This document shows, one piece after another, positions 25,763 through 42,495 of a stretch of DNA of 64,000 nucleotides (position 1 is its first letter; each line of letters begins with the position of its first letter). Source of the stretch: an uncultured Clostridia bacterium (lineage in GTDB: Bacteria > Bacillota > Clostridia > Lachnospirales > Anaerotignaceae); NCBI GenBank assembly GCA_944377425.1, contig CALWEX010000054.1:1-64000 (forward strand), written 5' to 3'. The translations under genes were made by a program, and so were the position numbers. The notes under the pieces are model-generated. The model searched no databases, was not told the DNA's origin, and saw only the letters and a program-made list of their open reading frames with translations.

Positions 25763-26317
25763 ATGAAAAAAATAATTAAAGTTAAAAAGCGTATTTTTAT
25801 TGTTGCGTCAGCCTGCATATTTGCTCTCTGTCTGCTTTCATTTACCCGTCCGGCAGCAATAAGCGTTTTCAGCTCTTTTTCACAAGGTGAACGAAAACTG
25901 CCTATTTACTGCGTAGATACTCCAGAAAAGAAAATATCAGTCAGCTTTGACGCTGCTTGGGGTGCTGACGATACCGATCAGCTGCTTCAAATACTTGCTG
26001 ATAACGACGTAAAAGCAACATTTTTTATGTGCGGCTATTGGGTAGATAAATATCCGGAAGAAGTTAAAAAAATAGCCGAAGCCGGTCATGATTTAGGCAA
26101 CCATTCAGCCACACATCCACACATGAATTCTCTTTCAAGCGAGCAGATAAAAACAGAGTTAGAACAGACCCACCAAAAAGTTCTTGACTTAACGGGAGAA
26201 AGCATGAATCTTTTCAGGCCTCCCTTTGGTGAGTATAACAACACAGTAATACAAACTGCCAATGACTGTGGTTATTATCCTATCCAGTGGGACGTTGAAA
26301 CAAATGCCACTAAGTAA
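25763..26317 (+). CDS. Polysaccharide deacetylase (PdaB/YlxY-like), 5' part of a split gene
   Basis: N-terminal 178 codons of a NodB-fold deacetylase plus six junk codons. Visible: membrane segment (11-28), motif 1 SFDAAWGADD (61-70), motif 2 HSATHP (114-119) and motif 3 RPPFGEY (152-158). The frame then reads QWDVETNATK and stops at 26317, so motif 4 (D-x-x-D-W) and motif 5 (L-x-H) are missing and the protein should be inactive. The missing C-terminus is encoded at 41815-42055. Fusing base 26298 to 41815 gives 258 codons in one frame, the normal family length. Relatives act on peptidoglycan and many are sporulation proteins. GGAGGTG precedes ATG 25763. The break is recombinational, not a frameshift. 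Confidence 0.93.
   Translation: MKKIIKVKKRIFIVASACIFALCLLSFTRPAAISVFSSFSQGERKLPIYCVDTPEKKISVSFDAAWGADDTDQLLQILADNDVKATFFMCGYWVDKYPEEVKKIAEAGHDLGNHSATHPHMNSLSSEQIKTELEQTHQKVLDLTGESMNLFRPPFGEYNNTVIQTANDCGYYPIQWDVETNATK
26284..26308 (+). other. Left attachment site (attL) of the split-gene element
   Basis: Host half CCAGT-GGGACGTT (26284-26296), crossover dinucleotide GA (26297-26298), then element half AACA-AATGCC (26299-26308). Each half finds its symmetric mate only at the right junction (41803-41827), as expected for a recombined serine-integrase site. Confidence 0.85.
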
Positions 26318-26461
26318 AATTACAGCATACATTTCAATAGGATAATTTTAGTTTTATCACAAAACTATATTTTATGTCAATATAAATTACACCAAAATAT
26401 TTCATTAAAAATATTTAATGATTTTATTGCCTTATCACGCCCTTTAAAGCATATATTTGTA

Positions 26462-26521
26462 TTGACACAGAAATAGTTTTATAGTAAAATCAATTCCCGT
26501 AATATAGTTTTATTGTAAATC
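26462..26521 (+). promoter_or_regulatory. marR promoter with two operator-like repeats
   Basis: TTGACA (26462-26467), 17 bases, TAAAAT (26485-26490). The pseudo-palindrome ATAGTTTTATAGTAAAAT overlaps the -10, and a second version (ATAGTTTTATTGTAAAT) begins about 32 bases later. This suggests autorepression by MarR. Confidence 0.65.
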
Positions 26522-26544
26522 ATTGTTTATGGAGACGATAAAAT

Positions 26545-26997
26545 ATGGAAAATACAAACGAAGATATACCTAAATTAATCAATGACTTACTGTCATTTAA
26601 TATGCGTTTGGGATGCATAATGCGAAACAAATTTAATGTAAATGGTAAGGGTCAGTTTGAAATATCTATGCGGCAGTTTCAAATTTTATTAGCTCTAAGG
26701 TTAAACAGTATAGATAGTATTTCAGACCTAGAGCAGCTGTTCAATATTAGCAAAAGCAGCCTTTCTTTAACCATCTCAAAAATGGAAAAGTCCGGCTTTA
26801 TACATAAAGAACAGCTTCCGGATGATAAAGATAAACGGACAGTGCATTTAAAAATTACATCAAAGGGTGAAGAAATAACAAAGAAGTTCGATGAAATAAT
26901 TTGCCAATCCTTCACAGATTTTTATAAGACATTAAATGAAAAGCAGAAAGAAAATTTAAAAATCGGAGTAAATAGTTTAATCAAAGTATTTGAATAG
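26545..26997 (+). CDS. MarR-family transcriptional regulator
   Basis: A 150-residue winged-helix regulator. The DNA-binding core is about residues 45-105, with LEQLFNISKSSLSLTISKME as recognition helix region and DDKDKRTVHLKIT as the wing. Long N- and C-terminal helices would form the dimer interface. It lies 13 bases upstream of the adaptor gene and heads the MarR-adaptor-RND operon, the usual arrangement for drug-responsive repression of an efflux pump. Paired operator-like repeats lie in its promoter. The inducer is unknown. Confidence 0.92.
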   Translation: MENTNEDIPKLINDLLSFNMRLGCIMRNKFNVNGKGQFEISMRQFQILLALRLNSIDSISDLEQLFNISKSSLSLTISKMEKSGFIHKEQLPDDKDKRTVHLKITSKGEEITKKFDEIICQSFTDFYKTLNEKQKENLKIGVNSLIKVFE

Positions 26998-27010
26998 GAG
27001 GATATTATTA

Positions 27011-28408
27011 ATGAAAAGAAGAATTATACCATCAGCTTTAATAGCTGCTCTTGTGGCCGCAACAATGCTCACTGCCTGTGGCAAAAGCGATGATACACAG
27101 GCAGCAAATTCAGCAGAAAATACAGCTGTTACTTATGTTGAGGTACTTAATACATCTTCAGACACAATTAAAAATGAGTATCTTTACAGCGGTACTGTAA
27201 AGCCAGTTAACGAGATTACAGTTTCCGGCACAATACAGGGAAAAGTAGCATCTGTAAATTTTGATGTAGGCGATTATGTAAACGCCGGAGATGTGCTTTA
27301 TACAATGGACACATCCGATATACTTAACTCCAAAAGAGTAGCCGAAGCATCTTTAGCCACAGCTGAGGCCAATATCCAGTCAGCTCAGACAAGCCTTGAC
27401 CTTGTAAACGGTGCATCAATGCAAAGCCAGATAGAAAGCGCCAAAGCAGCTTTGGATAAGGCAGAGGTAGCTTACAACACAGCCAAAACAAACTACGAAA
27501 ATAATAAAGTACTTTTTGAAAACGGTATTATAAGCCAAACAGAAATGGATAATATTTCTGATACATACACAAATGCTGAAATAGCATATAACCAAGCTAA
27601 AGAGTCTTATAACATTACAATGCAAATGCCTGATGAAAATCTGAGAAAGGCTCAAGACGCCCTTAATATAGCTCAGGCTTCAAAAGAAAGTGTTATTGCA
27701 CAAATCAATTCATATAATAAATCACTTTCAGACGCTGTTGTAAAAAGTCCAATATCAGGCTATGTTACAGCATGTAATGTTGACGCCGGAACAGTACTTG
27801 CTTCAAATGAGCCTTTTAAAATTTCTGATACATCAAAAGTTACTATTAATGTAAGCGTATCAGAAGAAATAATAAACTCCATAACAACCGGCCAAACAGT
27901 TTCTGTTACAATACCTGCTGTATCCAGCATAGCTAAAATAGGAACAATTAAAACTATAAATCCAGCAGCTAACGCAGGCGGAACATATGATGTTGAAATA
28001 GAAATAGACAACGCCGACGGAAAACTTAAAAGTGGTATGTTCGGCGAGGTAAGCTTTGTAAAAGACCAAAGTGAAAAAACCATTGTACTTCCTGTAGATT
28101 CCGTTATTACAAAAGGCGGTGAAAAATACGTATTTGTATTAAAAGATAATACAGCCGTTAAAACACCTGTTCAAACAGGCATAGAAAACGGAAACGAAGT
28201 AGAAATTACAAGCGGTCTTACAGAAAATATGTATGTAGTAATTAAAGGTCAAACATACCTTGAAGACGGAGACCATATAGAAGTAGCTCCAGAAACATAC
28301 GACGCCGAAAACAATGAGGTATTAATAAACGGCGAAGAAACATCACAAGACTCATCATCGTCATCAGCAGCCGTATCCTCCGCTGATTCCGACAAAAAGG
28401 AGGAATAA
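27011..28408 (+). CDS. RND efflux periplasmic-adaptor (HlyD/MFP) lipoprotein
   Basis: A 465-residue adaptor subunit linking an RND pump to its exit path. A lipoprotein signal peptide ends in LTAC (Cys23). A biotinyl-lipoyl half (VSGTIQGKVASVNFDVGDYVNAGDVLYTMD) is followed by a long alpha-hairpin (about 105-220), the second lipoyl half (VVKSPISGYVTACNVDAGTV), then beta-barrel and membrane-proximal domains. I list the long stretches only by type: the lipoyl halves are near 65-95 and 245-275. The C-terminal tail is Ser/Asp-rich. ATG 27011 has AGGAGG eight bases upstream, favoured over a start at 26990. The RND gene follows 3 bases later. Confidence 0.92.
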   Translation: MKRRIIPSALIAALVAATMLTACGKSDDTQAANSAENTAVTYVEVLNTSSDTIKNEYLYSGTVKPVNEITVSGTIQGKVASVNFDVGDYVNAGDVLYTMDTSDILNSKRVAEASLATAEANIQSAQTSLDLVNGASMQSQIESAKAALDKAEVAYNTAKTNYENNKVLFENGIISQTEMDNISDTYTNAEIAYNQAKESYNITMQMPDENLRKAQDALNIAQASKESVIAQINSYNKSLSDAVVKSPISGYVTACNVDAGTVLASNEPFKISDTSKVTINVSVSEEIINSITTGQTVSVTIPAVSSIAKIGTIKTINPAANAGGTYDVEIEIDNADGKLKSGMFGEVSFVKDQSEKTIVLPVDSVITKGGEKYVFVLKDNTAVKTPVQTGIENGNEVEITSGLTENMYVVIKGQTYLEDGDHIEVAPETYDAENNEVLINGEETSQDSSSSSAAVSSADSDKKEE

Positions 28409-28411
28409 TAA

Positions 28412-31400
28412 ATGCTAATTAAAACAGCTATAAAACGACCGGTAACTACTATTATGGCAATATTAATAGTAATACTCGCCGGCGTTATATCACTTACTAC
28501 TTTAAAACTTGACCTTATGCCATCCATAGACATACCTATGGCAATAGTAAGCACAACTTATGTAGGCGCAGGTCCAGAGGAAATAGAAAACCTTATTACA
28601 AAACCTATTGAAGAAGCTGTAGGTACTGTAAGTAATGTAGATACCATTTCTTCCACATCCTCATCAAACTCATCAATGGTAATGATACAGTTTGTTGATG
28701 GAACAAATATAGATACAGCTGCTTCAGACCTTAGGGAGAAAATAGACCTTATAAAAGGTACCCTGCCCGAGGATGCCAGTGAACCAATGGTTATGAAGCT
28801 GGACATAAATGAAATGTCATCAATAGTAGTAGGTGTAGGCTCTGATAAAATGGATATTGCAGACCTTACAGCATTTGTAGATGACAACATATCAAGCGAT
28901 ATTGAAAAAATAGATGGTGTAGCATCTGTAAGCTTAATAGGTGGCATTGATGATGTTATAAACATAACACTTGATTCAAACAAAATGAACGGTTATGGCA
29001 TAACAGCGTCACAAATAACAAATGCTCTTAAAGCCGAAAATATTAATATGCCTATAGGCCAGATAAATAATGGTTCAACAAAAATTACAGCTAAAACTGT
29101 AGGCGAGTTTAAATCTCTTGATGATATTAAGAATATACTTCTTACAACATCAGGCGGAAGTACTGTTCGCTTAAGTGATGTAGCTGATGTAGAGCTTACA
29201 ACAGAAGATGAAAACTCTTACGCTATAGTTAACGGCAGTAAAAGCGTTATTATGGCAATAAGTAAACAGTCTGATGCCAATATAGTTGATATTTCAGATA
29301 AAATAAATGCTGAAATAGCTAAAATAAATCAGCAGTATCCAGACTTAAGCATAAAAATGCTCTCAGATACATCGGAATATATCAGAACATCTGTAAATAA
29401 CGTGCTTACAACAGCTTTTCAGGCCGCAATACTTGCCGTTATAGTGCTTTTCATATTCCTTAGAAGTATAAGCACATCAGCAATTATAGCCGTTTCAATA
29501 CCTACATCAATAGTAGCAACATTCGCCTTAATGTATATGTGCGATATGACACTTAACATTATATCATTAGGCGGTATAACAATCGGTATAGGTATGTTGG
29601 TTGATAACTCGGTCGTTGTACTTGAAAATATATATAAATACCACTCCAAGGGTTATCCCGCAAAAGAAGCCGCCGAAATTGGTGCTTCAGAAGTTGGTCT
29701 TTCTGTTATGGCCTCTACCCTTACAACAGTAGCCGTATTCATTCCACTTATGTTCGTTTCCGGTACAATAGGCCAGATGTTTAAAGACCTTTCACTTACA
29801 GTATGCTTCTCATTAGGCGCATCCCTTGTGGTATCACTTTCATTTGTGCCTATGGCTTGCTCCAAACTTCTTGTACATGAAGAAAGAAGCGAAGAAAACC
29901 TTTCAAAAGGCGACCCAATAGGCAGACTTCTTGATAAATGGGGCGCTGCTCTTAACAAAATAGATACAACTTACAGAAAGTGTCTTCATTTTGTTTTAAG
30001 ACGCAAAAAGAGAACTCTTTTGGTAACAACATTAATATTTATATTGTCTATAGGCCTTATACCAATAGTAGGTTTTGACCTTATGCCTACAATGGATGAA
30101 GGCTCTGCTTCTATAAGCATTGAAATGCCTTCAGGTACTGTAATAGACGAAACAACAAATGTTGTTAACGAGGTTATGAACCGTATAAGCGACATACCAG
30201 AAACAGAAGAATATTATATAATGGCAGGCTCAAGCACAGCTTCTATGCTCAGCGGCTCAAGCCAGACAGATACAGCTACAATTACATTAAACTTTGTGGA
30301 TATAAAAGACCGTGACCGCTCTACAGACGAAATTGTTGAAGATATAAAAGAGCGTGTTAAAACAATACCAGGTGCAGATATTACTGTATCAGCATCAAGC
30401 AGTGCTATGGGTTCATATTCAGCTGCCAGCGATGTAGAAATACAGATAAATGGCGATGATATAGATAACCTTCGTCAAGCTGGTTATGAAATTGAAAAAA
30501 TATTTGAACAGCAGCCATGGGCAAAAGATGTAGTTAACTCATCCGAAACCAGTGTTCTTGAAGCAAATGTTGTAATAAACAGAGAAAAAGCTTCTCAGTA
30601 TGGTTTAACAACATCAGCTATAGCAAGTACCCTTTCTACAGCTGTAAACGGCAGTACTGCCACAACTTATAAACTAGACGGCGATGAAATAGACGTTATT
30701 ATAAAAGATAACGAAGACCGTGTAAGCTATTTGAACGACCTTCAGAAAGTTACAATACAGACATCAAGAGGTATAATACCTATAACAGATGTTGTGGATA
30801 TCTCAACTGATGAATCAGCAACAAGCATATCTCGTACAGATAACCATAAATACCTTACTATAGGCTTAAACCTTAATGGAATAGACTCTAATCAGGCTCA
30901 AAAGAACATAGTAAATCTCCTTAACCAGTATTCATTCCCAGATGGATGCAGTTATGAGTTTACAGGCGATATAGAAACAATGGTTGAAACATTCCAGAGT
31001 CTGCTTTTAGCCCTTGTAGTAGCCCTTGCTTTAGTTTACATGATAATGGCTTCTCAGTTTGAATCACTTATTCATCCGTTCCTTATTATGTTTGCCGTAC
31101 CTCTTGCTATAACAGGCGCTGTATTTGGTCTTTTCATAACAGGCGAATCTATTACATCTGTTACATTTATGGGCTTTATAATGCTTGTCGGCATGGTTGT
31201 TAATAACGGTATCGTGCTTATTGACTATACAAACCAGCTTAGAGCAAAAGGCATGGAGTGTATAGAAGCTCTTGAGGAAGCCGGCCCTAACCGTTTAAGA
31301 CCTATACTTATGACAACACTTACAACAGTTATAGGTATGGTTCCTATGGCACTTGCTATAGGCGAAGGTACCGAAATGCAGCGTCCTATGGCTGTAGCTA

Positions 31401-31555
31401 TTATATTCGGTCTTTCAATATCAACACTTGTAACACTTTTCTTCATACCTGTTTTATACTCTGCCGTTGAATCAATACGTTTAAAAAATGTTTCTAAGAA
31501 AACAAAAAATAAACTTTTCGGCTCAAAATTTAAAGACCATCAGGTAAGACAGTAA
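28412..31555 (+). CDS. RND-family efflux transporter (AcrB/SwrC-like)
   Basis: A 1047-residue proton-driven exporter of the HAE/AcrB type, full family length with 12 predicted membrane helices in two halves. Visible: TM1 at 10-30, the long extracytoplasmic loops after TM1 and TM7, the TM4 region GGITIGIGMLVDNSVVVLEN with the conserved Asp used in proton relay, and the TM10 equivalent FMGFIMLVGMVVNNGIVLID. Closest in style to Bacillus SwrC/YerP, which exports lipopeptides and drugs in a monoderm. It is co-transcribed with MarR and the adaptor. A TolC-family partner is encoded outside the element at 23643-24785. Confidence 0.95.
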   Translation: MLIKTAIKRPVTTIMAILIVILAGVISLTTLKLDLMPSIDIPMAIVSTTYVGAGPEEIENLITKPIEEAVGTVSNVDTISSTSSSNSSMVMIQFVDGTNIDTAASDLREKIDLIKGTLPEDASEPMVMKLDINEMSSIVVGVGSDKMDIADLTAFVDDNISSDIEKIDGVASVSLIGGIDDVINITLDSNKMNGYGITASQITNALKAENINMPIGQINNGSTKITAKTVGEFKSLDDIKNILLTTSGGSTVRLSDVADVELTTEDENSYAIVNGSKSVIMAISKQSDANIVDISDKINAEIAKINQQYPDLSIKMLSDTSEYIRTSVNNVLTTAFQAAILAVIVLFIFLRSISTSAIIAVSIPTSIVATFALMYMCDMTLNIISLGGITIGIGMLVDNSVVVLENIYKYHSKGYPAKEAAEIGASEVGLSVMASTLTTVAVFIPLMFVSGTIGQMFKDLSLTVCFSLGASLVVSLSFVPMACSKLLVHEERSEENLSKGDPIGRLLDKWGAALNKIDTTYRKCLHFVLRRKKRTLLVTTLIFILSIGLIPIVGFDLMPTMDEGSASISIEMPSGTVIDETTNVVNEVMNRISDIPETEEYYIMAGSSTASMLSGSSQTDTATITLNFVDIKDRDRSTDEIVEDIKERVKTIPGADITVSASSSAMGSYSAASDVEIQINGDDIDNLRQAGYEIEKIFEQQPWAKDVVNSSETSVLEANVVINREKASQYGLTTSAIASTLSTAVNGSTATTYKLDGDEIDVIIKDNEDRVSYLNDLQKVTIQTSRGIIPITDVVDISTDESATSISRTDNHKYLTIGLNLNGIDSNQAQKNIVNLLNQYSFPDGCSYEFTGDIETMVETFQSLLLALVVALALVYMIMASQFESLIHPFLIMFAVPLAITGAVFGLFITGESITSVTFMGFIMLVGMVVNNGIVLIDYTNQLRAKGMECIEALEEAGPNRLRPILMTTLTTVIGMVPMALAIGEGTEMQRPMAVAIIFGLSISTLVTLFFIPVLYSAVESIRLKNVSKKTKNKLFGSKFKDHQVRQ

Positions 31556-31562
31556 AATAACC

Positions 31563-31608
31563 AACAGTGCTTTATAAGAATAACTGCTTATAAGGCACTG
31601 TTTTTTAT
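31563..31608 (+). terminator. Intrinsic terminator after the RND gene
   Basis: AACAGTGC-T-TTATAAG pairs with CTTATAA-G-GCACTGTT (31563-31602), then a T-run. Confidence 0.92.
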
Positions 31609-31655
31609 GGTTTAAAACCAATTTTTAATATTTTATTTTATGTGTTAAATTTATG

Positions 31656-31683
31656 TTGTAATTTCCATTTTTTGCTGTATAAT
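31656..31683 (+). promoter_or_regulatory. Promoter of the TPP-riboswitch operon
   Basis: TTGTAA (31656-31661), 16 bases, TATAAT (31678-31683). The transcript would begin about 10 bases before the aptamer. Confidence 0.65.
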
Positions 31684-31699
31684 AAACTTGTAATTAAAT

Positions 31700-31785
31700 A
31701 TCTGCGGGGGAACTATATGTTGAGAAGGTTAAAACCTGACCCTTTGAACCTGTTGGTTAACACCAGCGTAGGGAAGCATACAAAA
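31700..31785 (+). promoter_or_regulatory. TPP riboswitch (THI element) aptamer
   Basis: The conserved THI-box core is present: TGAGA (from 31721), CCCTTTGAACCTG (from 31740) and CACCAGCGTAGGGAA (31761-31775). Binding of thiamine pyrophosphate is expected to stabilise the aptamer and turn off the downstream binding-protein and hydrolase genes. Confidence 0.95.
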
Positions 31786-31801
31786 TAAAAAAGATTTTTA
31801 T

Positions 31802-31830
31802 ATCCTTCCCTTAGTGGAAGGATTTTTTTG
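31802..31830 (+). terminator. Riboswitch-controlled terminator
   Basis: ATCCTTCC-CTTAGT-GGAAGGAT then seven T. The left arm CTTCCCT (31805-31811) is complementary to AGGGAAG in the aptamer's 3' strand (31770-31776), giving the alternative antiterminator pairing. A further 8-base complement joins 31700-31707 with 31832-31839. Confidence 0.9.
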
Positions 31831-31864
31831 TCCGCAGATTACACAAAAAGGAGGAGATTCAAAA

Positions 31865-32959
31865 ATGAAAAAACTTATCACCATGGCACTTACAGCAGTA
31901 TTATCTGTATCATGCCTTGCAGGCTGCTCATCAGGCAGCACATCATCAGCCACATCAGGAAGTACAGAACAAAGCTCAGCTTCCACATCAGGGAGTGAAA
32001 CAGCAGAAAATACCGATTTAGAGGACTTTGACTTAGTTCTTGACTGGTACCCTAACGCCGTACATGCCTTTATTTATGACGCTATAGAAAAAGGCTATTT
32101 TGCCGAAGAAGGCCTTAATGTAAATATTCTTTTCCCTTCCAACAGCAATGATGCCATATCTCTTACAGCAGCAGGCAAAGCAGACGCTGGTCTTTATTAT
32201 CAGGACGATATAATTATGGCTATAGCCAACGAAGATGTTCCGGTTAAAATTATAGGTTCTGTAGTTCAGGAACCACTTGACCTTATAGCTTCTTTAAGCG
32301 AAAAAAATATAACACGACCAAAAGACCTTGAAGGCAAAACACTTGGCTATACAGGTGTAGCTTTCAGCGAAGCAGTAATTAATGCCATGATGGAAAGCGA
32401 CGGTTCTTCAATAGATAAAGTAAACTTAATAAACGTAGGCTTTGACCTTATGAGCGCTATGACAACAGGCAATGTAGATGCCACATTTGGCTGCTTTATA
32501 AACCACGAGATACCTCAGCTTGAAAAAGAAGGTTTCCCTATGAGCTACTTTGTTCCTTCTGAATATGGTGTGCCAAACTACTACTCACTTGTTTTTGTTG
32601 CAAATAAAGACAGTGCTGAAAAAGAAAACGACAAATACTATAGATTTTTAAGAGCCTGCTCAAAAGGTTTTTACGATATGAAAACAGACCCTGAAGGAAC
32701 ACTTAACATTCTTCTTGCAAACCAGAACGAGGACAACTTCCCTCTTGACCCTGATGTAGAAACAGAGAGTATAAATATTCTTTTGCCTATGATGGAAAAA
32801 GAGTTCTCTCCTTTCCTTTCACAGGACCCTAACTGCTATCTTGAAAACATTAACTGGCTTTATGATAACGGACTTTTAAACGAAAAGATAGATGCATCAG
32901 AAGTTTTTATTGACTGTATTGACCAGGATTATTACATGGGAGAAGATGAAGTACAATGA
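31865..32959 (+). CDS. ThiY-like ABC substrate-binding lipoprotein (thiamine pyrimidine precursor)
   Basis: A 364-residue extracellular binding protein of the NMT1/THI5-like family. Lipobox CLAGC (Cys21), then a Ser/Thr linker, then the type-II binding fold with the family's DWYPNAVHAFIYDA start (near 60), LFPSNSND, and KPKDLEGKTLGYTG-like segment (TRPKDLEGKTLGYTG). ThiY relatives bind N-formyl-aminopyrimidine made by thiamine breakdown. ATG 31865 has GGAGGAG upstream. It lies behind a TPP riboswitch, which supports the call. No ThiX or ThiZ permease/ATPase genes follow, so the membrane partners must be elsewhere. Confidence 0.88.
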   Translation: MKKLITMALTAVLSVSCLAGCSSGSTSSATSGSTEQSSASTSGSETAENTDLEDFDLVLDWYPNAVHAFIYDAIEKGYFAEEGLNVNILFPSNSNDAISLTAAGKADAGLYYQDDIIMAIANEDVPVKIIGSVVQEPLDLIASLSEKNITRPKDLEGKTLGYTGVAFSEAVINAMMESDGSSIDKVNLINVGFDLMSAMTTGNVDATFGCFINHEIPQLEKEGFPMSYFVPSEYGVPNYYSLVFVANKDSAEKENDKYYRFLRACSKGFYDMKTDPEGTLNILLANQNEDNFPLDPDVETESINILLPMMEKEFSPFLSQDPNCYLENINWLYDNGLLNEKIDASEVFIDCIDQDYYMGEDEVQ

Positions 32960-34131: not shown

Positions 34132-34154
34132 AAATTAATATAAATAACACAAAT

Positions 34155-34195
34155 AAAAAGTACGAAAATCTTTAAGAAATTCGTACTTTTTTATT
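34155..34195 (+). terminator. Intrinsic terminator after the thiamine salvage genes
   Basis: AAAAAGTACGAA (34155-34166) pairs with TTCGTACTTTTT (34180-34191), then a T-rich tail. Confidence 0.88.
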
Positions 34196-34280
34196 TTATT
34201 TGCTATATTTTGATTTGACAATGCTTAAACATGGCTGTAAACTAAAACCTGCTTAAAAACTTTTTAAGGAGCTGATTAAA

Positions 34281-34829: not shown

Positions 34830-35395
34830 TATATTTAACTCTTTTTATAACTTTCTTTAAAATAGGCGCATTTACTTTTGGCGGCGGTTACGCCATGCTG
34901 CCTCTTATTCAAAACGAGGTTTTAAATCACGGCTGGACAACTATGGAAGAACTTGTTAACTTCCTAGCCATAAGTGAAAGTACTCCCGGCCCTTTTGCCA
35001 TTAATATTTCAACATACATAGGTATGCGCTCTGCCGGTGTTTTAGGCGCTATATGCGCCACAAGCGGTGTTGTGGCGCCATCTTTTATAGTCATACTTAT
35101 ACTTGCACGCTGTTACAAAGCTTTCAGTAATCATTGGGCAGTAAAAGGCGCTTTGTTTGGTTTAAGACCAGCAGCCTGTGCCCTTGTGCTCTCCTCAGTT
35201 TTATCGGTTTTTATAACCGTTTTTTCGCCTTTCTGGCAAGAAAGCTTTAAAATAAGCCCTCTGCTTTTGGCATCATTAGGCATATTTGCCCTTTCAACTG
35301 TAGGCTGTATTAAAAAAGTACATCCTATACTTGTAATTGTGCTTTCGGCTGTAATAGGCATAATATTGGGTATGGCTGGTTTAATTACTATTTAG
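34826..35395 (+). CDS. Chromate transporter family, half-size subunit 2
   Basis: A 189-residue partner of the preceding gene with the same opening (FKIGAFTFGGGYAMLPLIQN) and a SESTPGPFAINISTY motif, about six membrane helices. GAAAGGAG precedes ATG 34826, which overlaps the stop of subunit 1 (ATGA). The two are expected to form an antiparallel heterodimer. Its stop codon overlaps that of the convergent gene on the other strand, so no terminator separates them. Confidence 0.9.
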   Translation: MIYLTLFITFFKIGAFTFGGGYAMLPLIQNEVLNHGWTTMEELVNFLAISESTPGPFAINISTYIGMRSAGVLGAICATSGVVAPSFIVILILARCYKAFSNHWAVKGALFGLRPAACALVLSSVLSVFITVFSPFWQESFKISPLLLASLGIFALSTVGCIKKVHPILVIVLSAVIGIILGMAGLITI

Positions 35396-36075
35396 CACCA
35401 GTAAAAGCATTTATAATAAGTTTCTTCATTTACATAAAACAGCTGTAAAAAGTGACTGTTAGAAAGTGAATTTTCAAAAGAAAATTCTTTTCTGCTCTCA
35501 TAAATCAGCTCCATAGCGTCTTTATCTTTATTGCAATAAAAAACAGTTAAAGTGCCTTTAAGAGAGTTACTTTTAATAAGTTCTTCTCTTTGGGCGCTTT
35601 TTATTATTTTTAAGCTTTTGCTGTTTGTTCCAAACTCATTGGAAAAAGCATCTAAATCCAGATTAAAAAATCCGTTTCCTTTTATGCTGTCCATCAGCAC
35701 CATTGCCATCTGAGCACAATCCTTAAAATTATCAAAGCACAAAACATAGCTTAAAATATATCTTTCTTTGTCGTCTGCTTCCCAATCCATAGGAAAAAAC
35801 GGCGACTGTGCTTCTTTTTGCTCTGCCTCTAAAACAGCCTTTTTAATCTCGTTTTCGTCAGGTGAAACAATAAACAAAAACCTGCTTCCTAAAACATCAT
35901 ATTCCGGATCAAAATACCCATCTACAGATATAATTAAGTCATCAACAGTTGGTATTTTGCCGTTAAAAAATTTAAACTCTGTTTTGTCATATCCGCCTTC
36001 ACTGCTTAAATCAATGCTGTTAAAATCAATATAATCTTTTAAATTATCTAAATCACCGGAAAAATAAAAATCCAT
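35392..36075 (-). CDS. Hypothetical protein
   Basis: A 227-residue soluble protein that I do not recognise. It has no signal peptide or membrane segment, is acidic, and rich in Phe, Asp and Asn, with alternating strands (LGSRFLFIVSPDENEIKKAV; RYILSYVLCFDNFKDCAQMA). A C-terminal YYKCFYWC ends with two cysteines. GGAGGGC precedes ATG 36075. It lies within the element, with its own transcription unit and convergent with the chromate transporters. Function unknown. Confidence 0.65.
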   Translation of the reverse strand: MDFYFSGDLDNLKDYIDFNSIDLSSEGGYDKTEFKFFNGKIPTVDDLIISVDGYFDPEYDVLGSRFLFIVSPDENEIKKAVLEAEQKEAQSPFFPMDWEADDKERYILSYVLCFDNFKDCAQMAMVLMDSIKGNGFFNLDLDAFSNEFGTNSKSLKIIKSAQREELIKSNSLKGTLTVFYCNKDKDAMELIYESRKEFSFENSLSNSHFLQLFYVNEETYYKCFYWC

Positions 36076-36133
36076 GTTATGCCCTCCTTATGTTATAAAT
36101 ACAGTATACCATTACAAAGGCAGTATTAAAAGA

Positions 36134-36961
36134 TTACTTAATAAGCATTTCAAGGTCTGTTATATTTTTGGGCACAGGAGAGTTAATTTTTATAACGCCT
36201 TTATTTATAAGCATTTTGTAAGTTTTTATTATTTGCGGCTCATCTAAACAGGCATATTTTAAAAGCTCATTATTTAAAAATAAATCTTCTGTTCTGCCGC
36301 AAAAAACCGCTTTTCCATCTTTAAGCACAACTACACTATCAGCCCAGTTTAAAACAAAGTCCATATTGTGGCTTGATATAATAACCGTTTTGCCTTTTTG
36401 GCTTAAGCCTTCTATTATTTTGTAAACTGTTTTGGCATTTACTGTATCGAGATAAGCTCCCGGCTCATCAAGTATAATAACTTCTGGTTCCATAACCATA
36501 ACACCGGCCAAAGAAACTCTTTTTTTCTCTCCTCCGCTTAAGGCATGAACAGGCTTATCAAGAAGGTTTTCTAAATTAAGAAATTTTGATATACTTTTTA
36601 TTTTTTCCTCTGCCTGACTGCTTGAAAAACCCATATTCAAAAGGCCAAAAGCTATATCCTGCCTTACACTTGAGGAAAATATCATATCATCAGGATTTTG
36701 AAAAACTATTCCCACAGAGCGCCTTAAATTTAAAAGGCCTTTTGAAGAATAATCTATTTCTTTGCCTTTAAAAAATACATCTCCTTTTTGCGGCTTATTT
36801 ATGCCGTTTAAACACAAAAACAATGTAGATTTTCCAGAACCGTTATGGCCTATAACGGCTGTTTTTTCTCCTGATTTTATACCAATATCAACATCAAAAA
36901 GAGCTTTTTGCCCGTTATGGTAGCTGTAATTTAAGTCTTGAGTTTTAATAATATAATCCAT
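36134..36961 (-). CDS. cbiO: Cobalt ECF/CbiO-type ABC transporter ATPase
   Basis: A 275-residue ATPase energising cobalt uptake by CbiMNQ. Motifs: Walker A GHNGSGKST, Q-loop FQNPDD, signature LSGGEKKRVSLA, Walker B EVIILDEP, and H-loop VIISSHN. ATG 36961 is used (GAGAGGA site), because the longer frame back to 37084 lies inside cbiQ and has no matching sequence. It overlaps the stop of cbiQ by one base. Last gene of the B12-riboswitch-controlled cbiMNQO operon. Confidence 0.95.
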   Translation of the reverse strand: MDYIIKTQDLNYSYHNGQKALFDVDIGIKSGEKTAVIGHNGSGKSTLFLCLNGINKPQKGDVFFKGKEIDYSSKGLLNLRRSVGIVFQNPDDMIFSSSVRQDIAFGLLNMGFSSSQAEEKIKSISKFLNLENLLDKPVHALSGGEKKRVSLAGVMVMEPEVIILDEPGAYLDTVNAKTVYKIIEGLSQKGKTVIISSHNMDFVLNWADSVVVLKDGKAVFCGRTEDLFLNNELLKYACLDEPQIIKTYKMLINKGVIKINSPVPKNITDLEMLIK

Positions 36962-37731
36962 TAATATATCCTCTCCAAAACACTTATTAAAACAACTGTA
37001 AAAACAATAAATACAGCTAAAATTACAAATTTTCTGCTGCTTACATACTTTTGATTTAAAAAATAAATCTCTCCGCTGTAGCATCGGCTTAACATGGCAT
37101 TATACATAAAAAGCGACTTGTTATAGGAAAGCACAAAAACACTTGAAAGCATAAGTGCCATAGCATTAATACGTGTTTTAAATGTTCTCTGTGCCATACG
37201 GCAGTTTTGCGCCGTAGTAATGCTTTGTGCCATATTAAGCACAATAAATATAAATCTGTAAATTAGCATAAAAAGCTCAGTTATTTCTTTAGGGCACTTT
37301 ATAGTTTTAAACACATACACAATATCATTTACAGGAGTTGTAAAAGATAAAAAATACATTGTGCTTAACGACGCGGCTGATGTAAAAAACAGCCTTATGG
37401 CTTTTTTAATTCCTTGTGCATTTACAGTTAAAAAATAATTATTTATTATTTTTAAAGAAAATACTTCTCCCCTGTAATTAGCTATATCAAAAGACACCAT
37501 AAAGGAGCTTAAAGCAATAAACAAAATCGGCCACAATACAATATGACAAATTAAATGTTTGCTTAAACGGCAGTTTTTTATAATAATCACCCACATAACA
37601 GACATAGCAAAAATACAGCCTAAAGGCTCTTTAAATATTATGCATGATAATATAACACTTAAGGCAAAAACTGCTTTTATGTTAGGGTTTATATTTTTTA
37701 TATATTCTGAAACATATACCGAATTAATCAT
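36961..37731 (-). CDS. cbiQ: Cobalt ECF transporter transmembrane component CbiQ
   Basis: The 256-residue T-component that couples the ATPase to the CbiMN substrate unit. It has about five or six membrane helices, and an arginine-containing coupling segment RMAQRTFKTRINAMALMLSS near residue 185, corresponding to the conserved cytoplasmic helices that contact CbiO. It starts 12 bases after cbiN. Gene order M-N-Q-O is standard for Co2+ transport. Confidence 0.92.
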   Translation of the reverse strand: MINSVYVSEYIKNINPNIKAVFALSVILSCIIFKEPLGCIFAMSVMWVIIIKNCRLSKHLICHIVLWPILFIALSSFMVSFDIANYRGEVFSLKIINNYFLTVNAQGIKKAIRLFFTSAASLSTMYFLSFTTPVNDIVYVFKTIKCPKEITELFMLIYRFIFIVLNMAQSITTAQNCRMAQRTFKTRINAMALMLSSVFVLSYNKSLFMYNAMLSRCYSGEIYFLNQKYVSSRKFVILAVFIVFTVVLISVLERIY

Positions 37732-37743
37732 ATAAACATACCC

Positions 37744-38046
37744 TTAAACAATATCTTTTTTAGCTTTTTTGTTTTTCTCATAAAGCACACCCAATCCAAA
37801 ACCAAATACTCCTGCGCCTAATGCTGCCTGAAGGCAAAAAAGGAGTGATTCCGTTTCAGAGCCTGGCGGTTCAAAAACAGGCGATGCCCAAGGCTCATAC
37901 TCATGACCTATTATTTCAGAAATTTCATCACTTGCAGCATCGTCAGAACCGCCGAAATCAGATGTATGGTTTGTTAAAAGTGGAAAAACCGCTATAGCAA
38001 CACAAACTAACAAACAAGCAATAACTTTTTTAAATGATAAATTCAT
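37744..38046 (-). CDS. cbiN: Cobalt transport protein CbiN
   Basis: A 100-residue accessory component with two membrane helices flanking a short extracytoplasmic loop: an N-terminal helix (about 7-25), the loop containing SDFGGSDDAASDEI and EYEPWASPVFEPP (a hallmark of CbiN), and a C-terminal helix (about 66-88). It helps CbiM load Co2+. ATG 38046 follows a GGGAGG site; the frame extending to 38073 is not needed. It lies 2 bases after cbiM. Confidence 0.92.
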   Translation of the reverse strand: MNLSFKKVIACLLVCVAIAVFPLLTNHTSDFGGSDDAASDEISEIIGHEYEPWASPVFEPPGSETESLLFCLQAALGAGVFGFGLGVLYEKNKKAKKDIV

Positions 38047-38048
38047 TC

Positions 38049-38798
38049 TTACGCCTCCCTGCTTATAACACATTTGCCGTCAAAGTCTATATCCGAAATT
38101 TTTTCAATGGCAGATAACGCCAAAGCTGTTATTATACCCTCAATAATTGCAAGGGGTATTTGAGTTACGGCAAATATACCTAAAAACTTAATCATAGACA
38201 TAATTACTCCGCCGTTTTGCGATGGATACGCCAATGAAAGCTGAAAAGACGTTACACAATATGTAAATAAGTCCCCTATTCCTGCTGATAAAGCTACTGA
38301 AATAAACTTTCCGGCATTTAATTTTCTGCAAAGTTTATAAACTCCATACGACACAAAAGGCCCTGCCACAGCCATAGAAAATGTATTGGCTCCAAGAGTT
38401 GTAATTCCGCCATGTGCCAAAAGTAGGGACTGAAAAACAAGTACAATAACGCCTATAATACTCATTACCCATGGCCCGAATATAACTGAACCAAAGCCCA
38501 TTCCTGTTGGGTGTGAACTGCTGCCTGTAACAGACGGTATTTTAAGCGATGAGAGTACAAACGTAAAAGCTCCAGCCATAGCCAATATAATAAGAGCCTT
38601 TTTGTTTTGAGTCGTTATTTTTTTCAGCGACATAAACCCTGCAATAATAAAAGGAATACATAATACAAACCACAAAATACAATCCTTAGGCGGAAGATAG
38701 CCTTCCATAATGTGCATAGCCTGTGCCTTTTGGGGAACAGCAAAAAGCAGGCACAAAACAGCTGTTAACAAAAACACTTTCTTTTCTTTCTTTGTCAT
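38049..38798 (-). CDS. cbiM: Cobalt ECF transporter substrate-capture protein CbiM
   Basis: A 249-residue Co2+-specific S-component. The N-terminal 27 residues look like a cleavable signal peptide, leaving MHIMEGYLPP, where the new N-terminal amine and the second-residue His ligate the metal. Another conserved stretch is SSSHPTGMGFG, containing a metal-ligand His, and about six further helices follow. AGGAGG precedes ATG 38798. First gene of the operon, right after a cobalamin riboswitch and its terminator. Confidence 0.95.
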   Translation of the reverse strand: MTKKEKKVFLLTAVLCLLFAVPQKAQAMHIMEGYLPPKDCILWFVLCIPFIIAGFMSLKKITTQNKKALIILAMAGAFTFVLSSLKIPSVTGSSSHPTGMGFGSVIFGPWVMSIIGVIVLVFQSLLLAHGGITTLGANTFSMAVAGPFVSYGVYKLCRKLNAGKFISVALSAGIGDLFTYCVTSFQLSLAYPSQNGGVIMSMIKFLGIFAVTQIPLAIIEGIITALALSAIEKISDIDFDGKCVISREA

Positions 38799-38820
38799 AT
38801 AAATCCTCCTTTTGATAAAT

Positions 38821-38866
38821 AAAAAAGCTGCCCATATTTGAAAGCAACAACAAATACGCGCAGCAA
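38821..38866 (-). terminator. Terminator of the cobalamin riboswitch
   Basis: On the minus strand GCTGCGCGTATTT pairs with AAATATGGGCAGC (one mismatch), then six T. It lies between aptamer and cbiM, so it is the likely switch output. Confidence 0.8.
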
Positions 38867-38934
38867 AATAAGGCTTTTAAAAAAGCCCATTCAACACAAA
38901 TTTGTTATACACCGCAACAAATAAGCTTCCTTAT

Positions 38935-39095
38935 TACATGGCAGGTCTTCTGGCTTAGACATCACAACGTATTTACGCCTTCCCATTTAAAACAGTGACA
39001 TAATATAAATACATTCCGTCAACACAGCGGCGGGACCGCACAGGCTTATCCTGTTTCCCTATTATCCTTCCTTAAAAAAGGCACCATATAATACT
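38935..39095 (-). promoter_or_regulatory. Cobalamin (B12) riboswitch
   Basis: Read on the minus strand: GGTGCC start near 39087, GGGAAACAGG, the AGCCTGTGCGGTCCCGCCGC block, the GGAATGT segment, GTCACTG, GGGAAGGCG and the closing GATGTCTAAGCCAGAAGACC with TGCCATG. These are the B12-box elements in order. It is expected to shut off cbiMNQO when cobalamin is plentiful. Confidence 0.95.
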
Positions 39096-39177
39096 AAATT
39101 TTAAAAGTACACAATTTTTGTAATTATATAACACACCTTTTGGGGCAGTCAATATAAATTAATTATATGTTCCAAAT

Positions 39178-39837
39178 TTAATCCAAAACACTTTTTATAA
39201 ATTCCATTGCCTCAATAGCGTTTTTAGCAACAAACAAAGCTTTTTTAAGTACTTCATCCGGCGGACAAACCAAATCCGGTATACAAATAACATCCATATT
39301 CGCTCTTAAAGCGGCTGTAACACCGTTTGGTGAGTCCTCAAAAACAATTGTATTTTCCGGAACGGAGTTTTCTTTTTTGCAGGCCGCTAAAAATATATCA
39401 GGTTCAGGCTTAGAGCGCTCAGTTTCTTCTCCACCTGTTACAGAGTTAAAATAATTTCTTAATCCTGCTGACTTTAAATATAAATCCACATACTCACTTT
39501 TGGTAGATGAAGCAACAGCACATTTTATGCCTTTATCATTAAAATACTTTAAAAGTTCTGGTATGCCAAATTTTATATCTATATCACCATTTTTAAACAG
39601 TGTGTTTACTCTTTGCCTTGCTTTTTTGCTTATCTCCTCAAAAGGATAGTCCATTCCAAAATTTAAAAGCATTTTTTCCTTAAGCCCTTTGCCTGTAAGG
39701 CCTATTGTGCTTTTATATATATCTTCTGTAAGCTCATAGCCGTAAGAGTGCATTACTTCTTTAAGCTCTTTTTCAAAAGCCCTCTCTGAATCGAATATAA
39801 GCCCGTCCATATCAAATATGGCAAGTTTAATTTTCAT
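39178..39837 (-). CDS. HAD-family hydrolase (beta-phosphoglucomutase / phosphatase-like)
   Basis: A 219-residue HAD subfamily IA protein with a helical cap. Motif I is FDMDGLIFDSE (both Asp), motif II AVASST, motif III the Lys in GEETERSKPEPD, and motif IV EDSPNG. The cap spans about 16-85. Acts on small phosphate esters; the substrate cannot be assigned. GGGAGG lies before ATG 39837. It lies between the B12-controlled operon and the recombinase block, inside the element. Confidence 0.9.
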   Translation of the reverse strand: MKIKLAIFDMDGLIFDSERAFEKELKEVMHSYGYELTEDIYKSTIGLTGKGLKEKMLLNFGMDYPFEEISKKARQRVNTLFKNGDIDIKFGIPELLKYFNDKGIKCAVASSTKSEYVDLYLKSAGLRNYFNSVTGGEETERSKPEPDIFLAACKKENSVPENTIVFEDSPNGVTAALRANMDVICIPDLVCPPDEVLKKALFVAKNAIEAMEFIKSVLD

Positions 39838-39853
39838 TTTATACCTCCCAAAA

Positions 39854-39925
39854 AAGCCGCATACTTAGGCCATATACCATAAAACAGTTTTATGGTCTGC
39901 ACCTTATAAGCATGCGGCAGTTTTA
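39854..39925 (-). terminator. Terminator after the small unknown gene
   Basis: On the minus strand GCCGCATGCTTA pairs with TAAGTATGCGGC across a loop that contains a second stem (CATAAAAC/GTTTTATG), then TTTTTT. Confidence 0.8.
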
Positions 39926-39931
39926 AGGTCA

Positions 39932-40324
39932 TTATTCATCAAAAGCGTCTAAACAGAATTTGTAGAAGTTATAGTCATAACTGTCGCTTCCTACACCTAT
40001 AGTAAATAGAAGCTCGTCAACGCCTTCTTCCATAAGGAATTTATATGCCCTGTTGTAACCTTCAAGTATTGACTTTCTATTTACATAATATGTATAAAGC
40101 CATAAAACAGTCTTTTTTTCGCCGTCAATTTCTATTTCCTGTGTTGGATTTTCCTCAACTAATTTTTCAACATCTGTAGGCGAAATACCTGTTTTTTTCT
40201 CCATGTCATCAACATCTTTAATCATTTTTTTGCCTTCTTTAACAAGCTTGGCAAAATCGTCGTGTGTAGCTTTAAGATAGCGTATAGTTTTAATTTTTCC
40301 GTCCGGAGTAAGATTTTCAAACAT
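39932..40324 (-). CDS. Hypothetical protein next to the recombinase
   Basis: A 130-residue soluble, acidic, helical protein that I do not recognise. ATG 40324 is chosen for its AGGGGGTG Shine-Dalgarno; the open frame extends to 40429 but overlaps the recombinase end. Sequence pieces include IRYLKATHDDFAKLVKEGK, a Glu-rich middle (VEKLVEENPTQEIEIDGEKK) and a Tyr-rich end (GVGSDSYDYNFYKFCLDAF). It lies 70 bases downstream of the recombinase on the same strand. A recombination-accessory role is possible from position only; there is no sequence support. Confidence 0.65.
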   Translation of the reverse strand: MFENLTPDGKIKTIRYLKATHDDFAKLVKEGKKMIKDVDDMEKKTGISPTDVEKLVEENPTQEIEIDGEKKTVLWLYTYYVNRKSILEGYNRAYKFLMEEGVDELLFTIGVGSDSYDYNFYKFCLDAFDE

Positions 40325-40394
40325 AATAACACCCCCTGAAATTTCTTTTATAAAATTAGAATATTTTAAAAAAAGGCTCTTGTCAATACACATA

Positions 40395-41744
40395 TTAAAT
40401 TCCATAAAAAATATGAGCTGTTTTTCCATTTAAAATTATTTTTTCAATCATAAGACTTAATAAAAGTTTCTTTTTCTCAAAATCCAAATTTTTTATATTT
40501 AAGTCAAAAAAACTTTTACTTTCAGAATAATTATTCTTTAATTCCTCAAGATTTTTAATTCTTTCGTTTATATACTTTACACTTACACCGCCTTCTTCAA
40601 TAGCTTTTACAAGATTGTTAATTCTGCTTTCAATTTCTATTTTTTCAATATTTTCACTGTAAGACGATAAATAATATTTAATAACATTATCAACATCAAT
40701 TATTATTTCATCTTCTAATTCATATATATCAAAACTCTTTACTCCCATACAGCCTTTAGAGCAGAACATATACCTTTTTTTACCTGATGAAACAATTTTA
40801 ACACTTCTTCCACATATGCCGCATTTTAAAAGTCCAGATAAAACCGACTGCCTACCGTATGTATTTACACATACAGCACTATTTAAATCAAGCCGTCTAT
40901 TGCAGTTTAAAAATATATCCGTCGGTATAACGCCTTTATGCCCGGCAATAGAAAGCTTTTTAGCACATCCGCCTTCTTTGCCTGTAAGCATAGCGGCATT
41001 AATACCATTAAATTCTGTTTCATCATTTTCAACTTCAACGCCTTTTTCTGCATAATACCAGTAAACATCTCTGTTGCAGGCAGCATAAACCGGATTTTTT
41101 ATTATTCTTGAAACAGCACGGCTGTCCCAGTATTTTTCAGGACACAAAATACCAGCTTTTTCCGCCGTATAATATAGGCTCTCACCTGAACAGTATATAT
41201 TAAACACAGTTTTTACAACTTCAATCATAGCATTTTGTCTTAAATAAGATACTTTTTTACCATCCACCTTTTCTTTAACAATATCAAAACCCAAAGGCGC
41301 CGGTCCTCCCGTCCAAACACCTCTTTTAAACCGAGCAAAATAATTATCCCGTATTCTCTCGGCTATAGTCTCACGCTCCAGCTGGGCAAAGCTCATTATA
41401 ATATACAGCATAGCCCGGCCTATAGGCGACGATGTATCGAATTTTTCGTTAACAGACAAAAACTCTACTCCATACTTTTCTAACTCCTGCCAGAAAACAG
41501 AAAAATCCGCAATAGAGCGGCTGAGTCTGTCAATTCTGTAAACTATAATTCTGTCTATACTTTTGTTTCTAATTTGACTAAGCATATTTTTAAACGCCGG
41601 CCTGTTGGTGTTTTTTCCCGAAAACCCTTTATCAGCAAAAACAGTATACTCACCCCTTGCCTGAACAGCGCACATCTCTATCTGTGCCTCTATGGATATA
41701 CTGTCTTTTTTGTCAACTGACTGCCTTACATAAAGCGCGTCCAT
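40395..41744 (-). CDS. Large serine site-specific recombinase (SpoIVCA-like)
   Basis: A 449-residue large serine recombinase. The N-terminal resolvase domain (1-145) has the catalytic serine in YVRQSVDKK (Ser9) and the arginine-rich YRIDRLSRS. A recombinase domain (about 150-260: GGPAPLGFDI, SRAVSRIIKNPVY) follows. Then comes a zinc ribbon (LKCGICGRSVK ... FCSKGC, about 305-330) and a coiled coil (about 360-420). ATG 41744 is chosen for AAGGCGG and homology to the family start; a longer frame reaches 41819 but crosses the attachment site. The gene sits 69 bases from the right crossover and reads into the element, as spoIVCA does in skin. It very likely catalyses integration and, perhaps with a directionality factor, excision. 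Confidence 0.93.
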   Translation of the reverse strand: MDALYVRQSVDKKDSISIEAQIEMCAVQARGEYTVFADKGFSGKNTNRPAFKNMLSQIRNKSIDRIIVYRIDRLSRSIADFSVFWQELEKYGVEFLSVNEKFDTSSPIGRAMLYIIMSFAQLERETIAERIRDNYFARFKRGVWTGGPAPLGFDIVKEKVDGKKVSYLRQNAMIEVVKTVFNIYCSGESLYYTAEKAGILCPEKYWDSRAVSRIIKNPVYAACNRDVYWYYAEKGVEVENDETEFNGINAAMLTGKEGGCAKKLSIAGHKGVIPTDIFLNCNRRLDLNSAVCVNTYGRQSVLSGLLKCGICGRSVKIVSSGKKRYMFCSKGCMGVKSFDIYELEDEIIIDVDNVIKYYLSSYSENIEKIEIESRINNLVKAIEEGGVSVKYINERIKNLEELKNNYSESKSFFDLNIKNLDFEKKKLLLSLMIEKIILNGKTAHIFYGI

Positions 41745-41771
41745 ACAAAAACCGCCTTTATCTTTTTTTAC

Positions 41772-41799
41772 ATTATATTTAATAACGATTTTTTTATTC
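41772..41799 (-). promoter_or_regulatory. Candidate promoter of the recombinase gene
   Basis: On the minus strand, GAATAAA (41799-41793) and AATATAAT (41779-41772) with a 13-base spacer resemble a SigE promoter (consensus about KMATATT / CATACAAT); TATAAT could also serve SigA, though a -35 is lacking. The region is very AT-rich, so the match is weak evidence. Confidence 0.3.
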
Positions 41800-41802
41800 A
41801 TT

Positions 41803-41827
41803 GGCATTACCTGATTCACTTGACTGG
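41803..41827 (+). other. Right attachment site (attR) of the split-gene element
   Basis: Element half GGCATT-ACCT (41803-41812), crossover GA (41813-41814), host half TTCACTTG-ACTGG (41815-41827). Element halves joined: GGCATT-N4-GA-N4-AATGCC. Host halves joined: CCAGT-N8-GA-N8-ACTGG. The element arms keep partial symmetry for about 12 further bases, 8 of 12 matching. Confidence 0.85.
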
Positions 41828-42055
41828 AAAGAACAGGGGCCGGAAGCTGAAATAAACCAAGTGCTTAACCATAAACACTTGTCAAACGGCTCAATTATAC
41901 TTTTCCATAACGATGCCAAGTACACTCCTCAGGTGCTGGATACAATATTAAAAGGCCTTAAAGAAAAAGGTTATGAAATTGTGCCTATAAGCGAGCTTAT
42001 ATATAAAGACAACTATTACATGGATAATGAAGGACGGCAGAAGCTTAATTCTTAA
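41815..42055 (+). pseudogene. Polysaccharide deacetylase, 3' part of the split gene
   Basis: Encodes the C-terminal 80 residues missing from 25763-26317. It starts within the codon for motif 4 (the residues S-L-D-W of DVDSLDW) and contains motif 5 in SIILFHNDAKYTP, with its catalytic-site His, then LKGLKEKGYEIVPISELI, the typical end of PdaB/YlxY-like enzymes. There is no Shine-Dalgarno, and only a TTG codon (41801) is available upstream within the element, so it should not be translated alone. All motifs are intact and there is no frameshift, which suggests that the gene is still under selection and is rebuilt by excision, or that the insertion is recent. Confidence 0.92.
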
Positions 42056-42273: not shown

Positions 42274-42495
42274 ATGCTTAAACTTGATGTACTTAGACTG
42301 CTTGAGGAAAATGGAAAAACAAAATACTGGCTTTATAAAAGACTTGGCATGAGCTACCAGAATTTTAATAAAATGGTTAATAACGAAACTTCATCTATAC
42401 GTTATGAAGTTATAGAAGAACTTTGCGGTCTTTTTAACTGTACCCCAAACAGACTTTTTTCTCTTGACTCCGCCGTATCAAAGCAAAGCTCATAA
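42274..42495 (+). CDS. XRE/YozG-type small transcriptional regulator
   Basis: A 73-residue single-domain helix-turn-helix protein: KTKYWLYKRLGMSYQNFNKM is the HTH core and IEELCGLFNCTPNRLFSLD the closing helix. GGAGTG precedes ATG 42274. It lies just outside the split-gene element, after the 3' part of the deacetylase and behind a possible attenuator. No target is evident; it may be autoregulatory. Confidence 0.88.
   Translation: MLKLDVLRLLEENGKTKYWLYKRLGMSYQNFNKMVNNETSSIRYEVIEELCGLFNCTPNRLFSLDSAVSKQSS

Follow-up and report, generated by a model that had tools for sequence, protein, structure and literature searches.

Several genes are known to be rebuilt by the programmed excision of an intervening element, namely sigK, spsM, spoVFB, spoVR, gerE, kamA, and yabG (PMC6957869, PMC4191935, PMC10747680, PMC5595907, PMC5025042). 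The excision of skin employs a recombinase and a small recombination directionality factor, CD1234 (PMC5025042) or skr (PMC6957869), and in the skr-spoIVCA layout skr overlaps the start of the recombinase gene (PMC6957869). The excision of gin is specific to sporulation (PMC5595907). Here, we describe an element that splits the polysaccharide deacetylase gene pdaB of an uncultured Clostridia bacterium from the family Anaerotignaceae. The element is located in a stretch of 64,000 nucleotides (GenBank assembly GCA_944377425.1, contig CALWEX010000054.1, positions 1 to 64,000), hereafter called the window. The reversible, site-specific excision that would restore pdaB, put forward in an original prediction made from the letters of the window alone, is strongly supported by sequence features: a palindromic attP attachment site, open recombinase frames, intact genes in relatives, purifying selection on pdaB, and contigs that fork at the crossover. 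It is probable that the element works like skin and would be excised mainly in the mother cell in which sigma-E is active.

The split pdaB gene

The interrupted 5′ frame of pdaB (25763–26317) ends with QWDVETNATK and a stop codon just past catalytic motif 3, which leaves the frame without motifs 4 and 5. The missing C-terminal part is encoded on the same strand beyond the element. Joining base 26298 to base 41815 yields an in-frame gene of 777 bases (258 codons) and regenerates the motif 4 sequence QWDVDSLDWK; the split is positioned at the Asp codon of this motif. Re-reading of the coordinates and joining of the sequences bore out the original prediction on the stop, the missing part, and the join. 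The separate exons match adjoining stretches of the TIGR02764 profile (positions 1–131 and 130–191), and the joined protein matches positions 1–191 with 231.3 bits, the best score of all models, compared to 159.8 bits for YlxY and 152.5 bits for PdaA. Judged by these profile scores, the split gene is PdaB rather than YlxY, and the name is the best available though formally 6 bits short of the curated cut-off of 237.4. The host genome encodes two other PF01522 proteins, a true PdaA (313.5 bits) and a PgaB-like protein, and therefore the split gene is the only PdaB of the host.

The gene is broken at the same place in five of the six species sampled from the genus (genomes G000–G005, with G000 being that of the window). 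The sixth, G004, has the uninterrupted 258-codon gene that had been suggested as a check among related genomes, and no recombinase was found in its genome. The ratio of nonsynonymous to synonymous substitution rates (dN/dS) within the genus is 0.005–0.058 for exon 2 and, where computable, 0.046–0.073 for exon 1, with synonymous sites near or at saturation. Meanwhile, the recombinases of the genus diverged to 54–78% identity (78, 71, 62, and 54% for the right-end orthologues). The strong purifying selection on both exons while the recombinases diverged indicates that the rebuilt gene is used. The original prediction had named long-diverged pseudogene parts in relatives as the finding that would speak against it, and the 3′ part is the opposite, with a dN/dS of 0.005–0.06.

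Attachment sites, recombinase, and possible traces of excision

The only sequence common to both ends of the element is TGA. In the rejoined element, the dinucleotide GA (26297–26298, identical to 41813–41814) is located at the exact centre of the inverted repeat TGGCATT-N10-AATGCCA. The symmetry of the window attP site around this GA extends to 15 of 22 pairs, compared to at most 11 for any other centre. The in-frame GA is present at both ends in all 22 complete element pairs of the family. In 20 of the 22 attP sites, symmetry is highest around this GA, averaging 14.8 of 22 pairs versus 7.1 around other centres, and in some element pairs, such as that of G027 (ATAGATA and AGGGACA), nothing else is shared. 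As read from the sequences, the pattern is characteristic of the dinucleotide at which a serine recombinase crosses over, comparable to that of gin (PMC5595907).

The large serine recombinase at the right end of the window element reads inward, as predicted, and contains a Resolvase catalytic domain with a nucleophilic serine, a Recombinase domain, and a Zn ribbon. Residues R32-Q33-S34, together with R95, R98, and R101, are invariant in the recombinases of the five species. The enzyme also matches the XisF model NF041201 with an E-value of 6.5e-29, under the cut-off of the model. Recombinase frames are open in 24 lineages. Small open reading frames (ORFs) of approximately 42–58 residues adjoin or overlap the recombinase start in G051–G053, G056, G057, G035, and loci L128 and L158. 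They lie just upstream of the recombinase gene, sometimes overlapping it, in L158 (50 residues), L128 (53 residues), G056, G057, and G035, and are divergent from it in G051–G053. As candidates for a directionality factor, these ORFs share the arrangement of skr-spoIVCA (PMC6957869), and both skr and CD1234 are small factors of this type (PMC6957869, PMC5025042). None of the three candidates tested had a PHROG match. The 130/165-residue protein encoded beside the recombinase was considered as a directionality factor and downgraded, since G004 retains it although no recombinase was found there, and a search of G044 yielded no copy.

Closely related recombinases are found at the left or right end of the element, always reading outward (G007–G012, G043, and G047 versus G017, G020, G027, G029, and G039). 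Inversion of the element between lineages was considered as the cause of these placements. However, the GA core should fix the orientation, which favours independent acquisition or internal rearrangement.

Traces of excision may be recorded in the assemblies. Contig C28 of G035 (L206) ends with GTGGATAG, and contig C27 (L207) starts with the same 77 bases and continues into the element; the fork is located exactly where attL and attB part. Contig C173 of G049 (L233) spans the joined gene, and contig C147 (L234) starts 2–3 bases before the crossover. The exact 141-base overlap of these two contigs implies a second predecessor beside attB. Additionally, contig C89 of G206 (L295) ends at GTTGA. 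The contig ends positioned at the crossover in the three genomes suggest that joined and split forms coexist, and such ends offer a possible way to look for active excision in public assemblies.

Distribution and forms of the element

The family was sampled with 58 genomes from 17 genera. The pdaB gene is split at the same codon in 26 of them (G000–G003, G005, G007–G009, G011, G012, G017, G020, G027, G029, G031, G035, G037, G039, G043, G044, G047, G051–G053, G056, and G057) and intact in 30, and there is no close PdaB match in the remaining two (G006 and G045). Three split genomes contain one half only, the 5′ part in G031 and G043 and the 3′ part in G037. The split genomes belong to 11 of the 17 genera, and both states occur within seven genera. 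A degenerate pattern for an intact junction elsewhere in the genome found none in 33 split genomes tested and recovered all four positive controls; thus, the split gene is the only pdaB in the split genomes tested. The two halves are collinear and on the same strand in all 21 pairs located on one contig, counting the family and other Clostridia. Chance is rejected as an explanation because the break recurs in five of six species of the genus and in 26 of 58 genomes of the family, and because of the selection on the gene.

The elements range in size from approximately 2.5 kb to 46 kb. The largest is the G027 element, which has terminase, portal, sheath, tape measure, and baseplate genes and is thus a myovirus prophage. 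A HEPN/MNT-like gene pair (families assigned by eye) adjoins the recombinase in this prophage and is similar in G017 and G029. The smallest, in G051–G053 (L193, L194, and L195), consist of the recombinase, a divergent ORF of approximately 45–58 residues, and a phage endolysin (Amidase_3-like) as the sole cargo; the phage-type identity of the endolysin was tested with the G052 protein. The G056 element carries an apparent ABC transporter and metabolic genes, assigned by eye. No phage structural genes were recognised among the genes of the window element, which carries host-type cargo (Table 1). Efflux, substrate-binding protein, M20, HAD, and 130-residue protein genes are common to all five split genomes of the genus. 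The cobalt transporter was seen in G000, G002, and G003 and is missing from G001, and the G005 sequence is interrupted within the element. The 73-residue protein encoded right after the 3′ exon is more conserved than its neighbours.

Table 1. Features of the split pdaB locus in the window, and the prophage at the same site in G027
Feature	Position	Strand	Basis
pdaB 5′ exon (catalytic motifs 1–3, first part of motif 4)	25763..26298	+	TIGR02764 positions 1–131, 5.3e-44; Polysacc_deac_1
Read-through codons of the interrupted frame into the element (TNATK and stop)	26299..26317	+	Sequence
Intervening element, 15,516 bp	26299..41814		Junction sequence; genus comparison
attL: GA crossover 26297–26298, element half-site arm AATGCCA 26303–26309	26290..26312		Palindrome centre test; same GA in 22/22 element pairs
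MarR-type regulator (cargo, conserved in genus)	26545..26997	+	Domain match; genus comparison
RND periplasmic adaptor (cargo)	27011..28408	+	TIGR01730, 2.3e-62
RND efflux permease (cargo)	28412..31555	+	NF033617, 2.3e-231
Thiamine pyrophosphate (TPP) riboswitch upstream of NMT1-type binding protein	31696..31792	+	Rfam RF00059, 62 bits
NMT1/THI5-like substrate-binding protein (cargo)	31868..32959	+	PF09084, 3.6e-65
M20-type peptidase (cargo)	32956..34131	+	Family by eye; genus comparison
Two-gene ChrA-type chromate transporter (cargo)	34350..35395	+	Family by eye; genus comparison
Conserved hypothetical protein, 227 aa	35392..36075	-	No Pfam match; kept in G001–G003, partly in G005
ECF cobalt transporter cbiMNQO (cargo; absent from G001)	36134..38798	-	Names by eye; cobalamin riboswitch upstream
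Cobalamin riboswitch	38923..39103	-	Rfam RF00174, 114.8 bits
HAD hydrolase (cargo)	39178..39837	-	PF13419, 2.9e-34
Conserved hypothetical protein, 130 aa from downstream start, downstream of recombinase	39932..40324	-	75–96% identical across genus; also beside intact pdaB in G004
Large serine recombinase, 449 aa from ATG (MDALYVRQS), predicted to excise the element	40395..41744	-	PF00239 2.5e-36, PF07508, PF13408; same-place orthologues in 5/6 species
Candidate sigma-E-like promoter, 35 nt before recombinase start, GAATAAA-N13-AATATAAT (suggestive only)	41772..41799	-	Motif scan
attR: element arm TGGCATT 41802–41808, GA crossover 41813–41814	41800..41828		Palindrome centre test
pdaB 3′ exon (rest of motif 4 SLDWK, motif 5 LFHND, stop)	41815..42055	+	TIGR02764 positions 130–191, 7.2e-18; dN/dS 0.005–0.06
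Conserved 73-aa helix-turn-helix-like protein outside the element, adjoining 3′ exon	42274..42495	+	82–99% identical in genus; also in G044, G056, G057
G027 prophage	G027:C1:1395900-1442010 (L283–L285)		Phage gene matches

The original prediction was based on one locus, whereas the split site recurs throughout the family and beyond it. Scanning a recombinase alignment against 84,980 species identified about 20 recombinase loci in other Clostridia families adjacent to pdaB halves that are divided at the same GA, including Oscillospiraceae, Butyricicoccaceae, Anaerovorax odorimutans DSM 5092, Oscillibacter ruminantium GH1, Flavonifractor, Eubacterium, and Peptococcaceae; locus L135 was excluded, as its 3′ junction differs. 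In the recombinase tree, 45 of the 75 members are linked to pdaB, and 14 changes are needed on the tree. An even sample of 393 Clostridia contains at least seven genomes outside the family cut at the site (G082, with the junction deduced from the profile match only, G111, G150, G200, G207, G280, and G435), six of which also yielded the corresponding 3′ half. The profile search covers the strongest matches, and the count for the class is thus a lower bound. G109 and G231 were rejected as cases of truncated pdaB, since their contigs end beyond or outside the site.

The element likely originated from a prophage that used the conserved motif 4 codons as attB and subsequently decayed or was domesticated under selection for a restorable gene; a complete prophage (G027), minimal remnants (G051–G053), and host-type cargo (the window) are among the forms seen. 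There is an even chance that the motif 4 codons of pdaB are an attachment hot spot throughout Clostridia, at which one clade of recombinases repeatedly made prophages into heritable, developmentally excised switches, with the window element being kept vertically. The prophage, remnant, and cargo forms found side by side in this widely conserved spore-wall gene, different from those rebuilt in the known systems, form a natural series in which to study how a phage turns into a developmental switch and what makes mother-cell genes favoured targets. Furthermore, annotations of many gut Clostridia will show pdaB as a pair of fragments or as a pseudogene even though the gene is maintained, which matters when species are called spore formers from metagenomes.

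Proposed mother-cell excision and comparison with known elements

The proposed mechanism is modelled on the known biology of serine recombinases and skin. The recombinase would act on attL and attR, probably assisted in most lineages by a small directionality factor whose gene adjoins its own, and thus free a circle of 15.5 kb and restore pdaB. The excision would take place mainly in the mother cell with active sigma-E, where PdaB is needed. The mother cell would die afterwards, and therefore the germ-line chromosome in the spore would keep the element. We infer the mother-cell timing by analogy, because pdaB (spoVIE) of Bacillus subtilis belongs to the sigma-E regulon (PMC4703394), the host has intact sigE-like and sigK-like genes, and a suggestive promoter motif precedes the recombinases. 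In a sporulation screen, pdaB has a table value of 5, taken here as percent sporulation (PMC4703394). The best sigma-E-like site is located 28–40 nt before the start of 14 of 24 recombinases, compared to 1 of 33 control genes, where the controls are all from one genome and the recombinases are related. An example of the motif, CATACAAT, occurs in G047 and G051. The motif is suggestive only, and pdaB itself showed no clear sigma-E promoter when scanned. If the hot-spot reading given above is also correct, mother cells would delete metabolic genes in a programmed manner while completing the spore. The window element would take the riboswitch-controlled vitamin and cobalt uptake genes (TPP and cobalamin) with it, and the deletion in G044 would possibly exceed 170 kb, including asd-dapA-dapB.

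It is improbable that the excision is reversible without being developmental, with the element leaving and re-entering at a low rate in growing cells and producing a mixture of PdaB-on and PdaB-off cells independently of sporulation. Those contigs of G035, G049, and G206 that end at the crossover suggest that joined and split forms coexist in ordinary samples, and the joined form of the C. botulinum yin element was present at all time points (PMC10747680). Phage-type induction is even likely for the G027 element, because it is a myovirus prophage. However, PdaB is a sporulation protein, selection on which would act only through sporulation. No phage induction machinery was recognised in the minimal 2.5-kb or cargo elements, and the sigma-E-like motifs cluster at a fixed distance before the recombinases.

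Several observations weigh against excision in the mother cell by a simple skin-like element. The promoter motif is weak, in addition to the single-genome controls and non-independent recombinases. The search for a conserved small ORF that could encode a directionality factor in the genus of the window returned only riboswitch-derived or spurious frames. The contig forks could originate from mixtures of strains with and without the element, and just one of the two junctions is broken in each of G035 and G049. In G004 (contig C61, L054), the intact pdaB is flanked by the HAD, 130-residue protein, M20, and substrate-binding protein genes, whose order differs from that in the elements. The halves of G044 are located on two large contigs (C1:146000-165900, L286, and C9:130000-142119, L287); the 5′ half is 165 kb inside C1, and asd-dapA-dapB and gltBD (assigned by eye) are on the element side. 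Either the assembly of G044 is in error or a rearrangement put core chromosome between the att sites, and the interval could exceed 170 kb. An element that simply moves in and out explains neither the G004 nor the G044 arrangement.

The 3′ exon or the truncated 5′ protein might instead be kept for another use, as a stand-alone product or by complementation in trans, which would make excision irrelevant. Both parts are open frames, and some 5′ products run tens of codons into the element. Nevertheless, neither a start codon nor an upstream sequence belonging to the 3′ exon is conserved, the two parts divide catalytic motif 4 exactly at the recombination dinucleotide, and intact single genes are common in relatives, which makes such a use very unlikely. 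A dead interruption, in which an old element inactivated pdaB and left decaying pseudogene halves, would fit the single halves in G031, G037, and G043 and the lack of a close PdaB match in G006 and G045, but it is the least credible explanation and is rejected. Both exons are under strong purifying selection at saturated synonymous divergence, which is unlike pseudogene decay; the junction frame is intact in every one of the 22 complete pairs, 24 lineages have open recombinase frames, and the att symmetry is conserved.

The pdaB element can be compared with several described systems. Like skin in sigK of Clostridioides difficile and Bacillus subtilis, it is a serine recombinase element that splits a mother-cell sporulation gene between att sites in direct orientation, and the small ORFs of G035, G056, and G057 overlap the recombinase start as skr does. 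Unlike skin, it interrupts a cell-wall deacetylase gene instead of a sigma factor gene, uses another att site, and carries transport operons without recognised phage genes in the window, while the sigK-like gene is intact. The gin element in gerE of Bacillus cereus ATCC10987 is likewise a non-phage element with serine recombinase and palindromic att sites around a central dinucleotide, but it has three recombinases and a 9-bp common core (PMC5595907), whereas the window element has one recombinase and a GA core, and is kept vertically across the genus. The vfbin element in spoVFB, the spoVR element, SPbeta in spsM, the kamA prophages, and yin in yabG are also prophages or prophage-like and interrupt mother-cell genes, with prophage and remnant forms at one site, as in G027 and G051–G053 (PMC6957869, PMC4191935, PMC10747680). 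None of them is in pdaB, and the split described here affects about half of one family and additional families of Clostridia. In agreement with the original prediction, which knew of no case in this gene family, pdaB was not found as the host gene of an intervening element in the open-access literature, to which the search was confined. The recurrent split points to a widespread, apparently undescribed sporulation switch.

The fdxN, nifD, and hupL elements (XisF) of heterocyst-forming cyanobacteria are excised developmentally in a terminal cell. The excision proposed here would be of the same kind, and the window recombinase matches the XisF model below its cut-off; the phylum, cell type, and target genes are different. 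With a split gene that rejoins in frame, its own recombinase, a short att core in an inverted repeat, and intact genes in relatives, the pdaB element has these sequence hallmarks of the skin-like elements.

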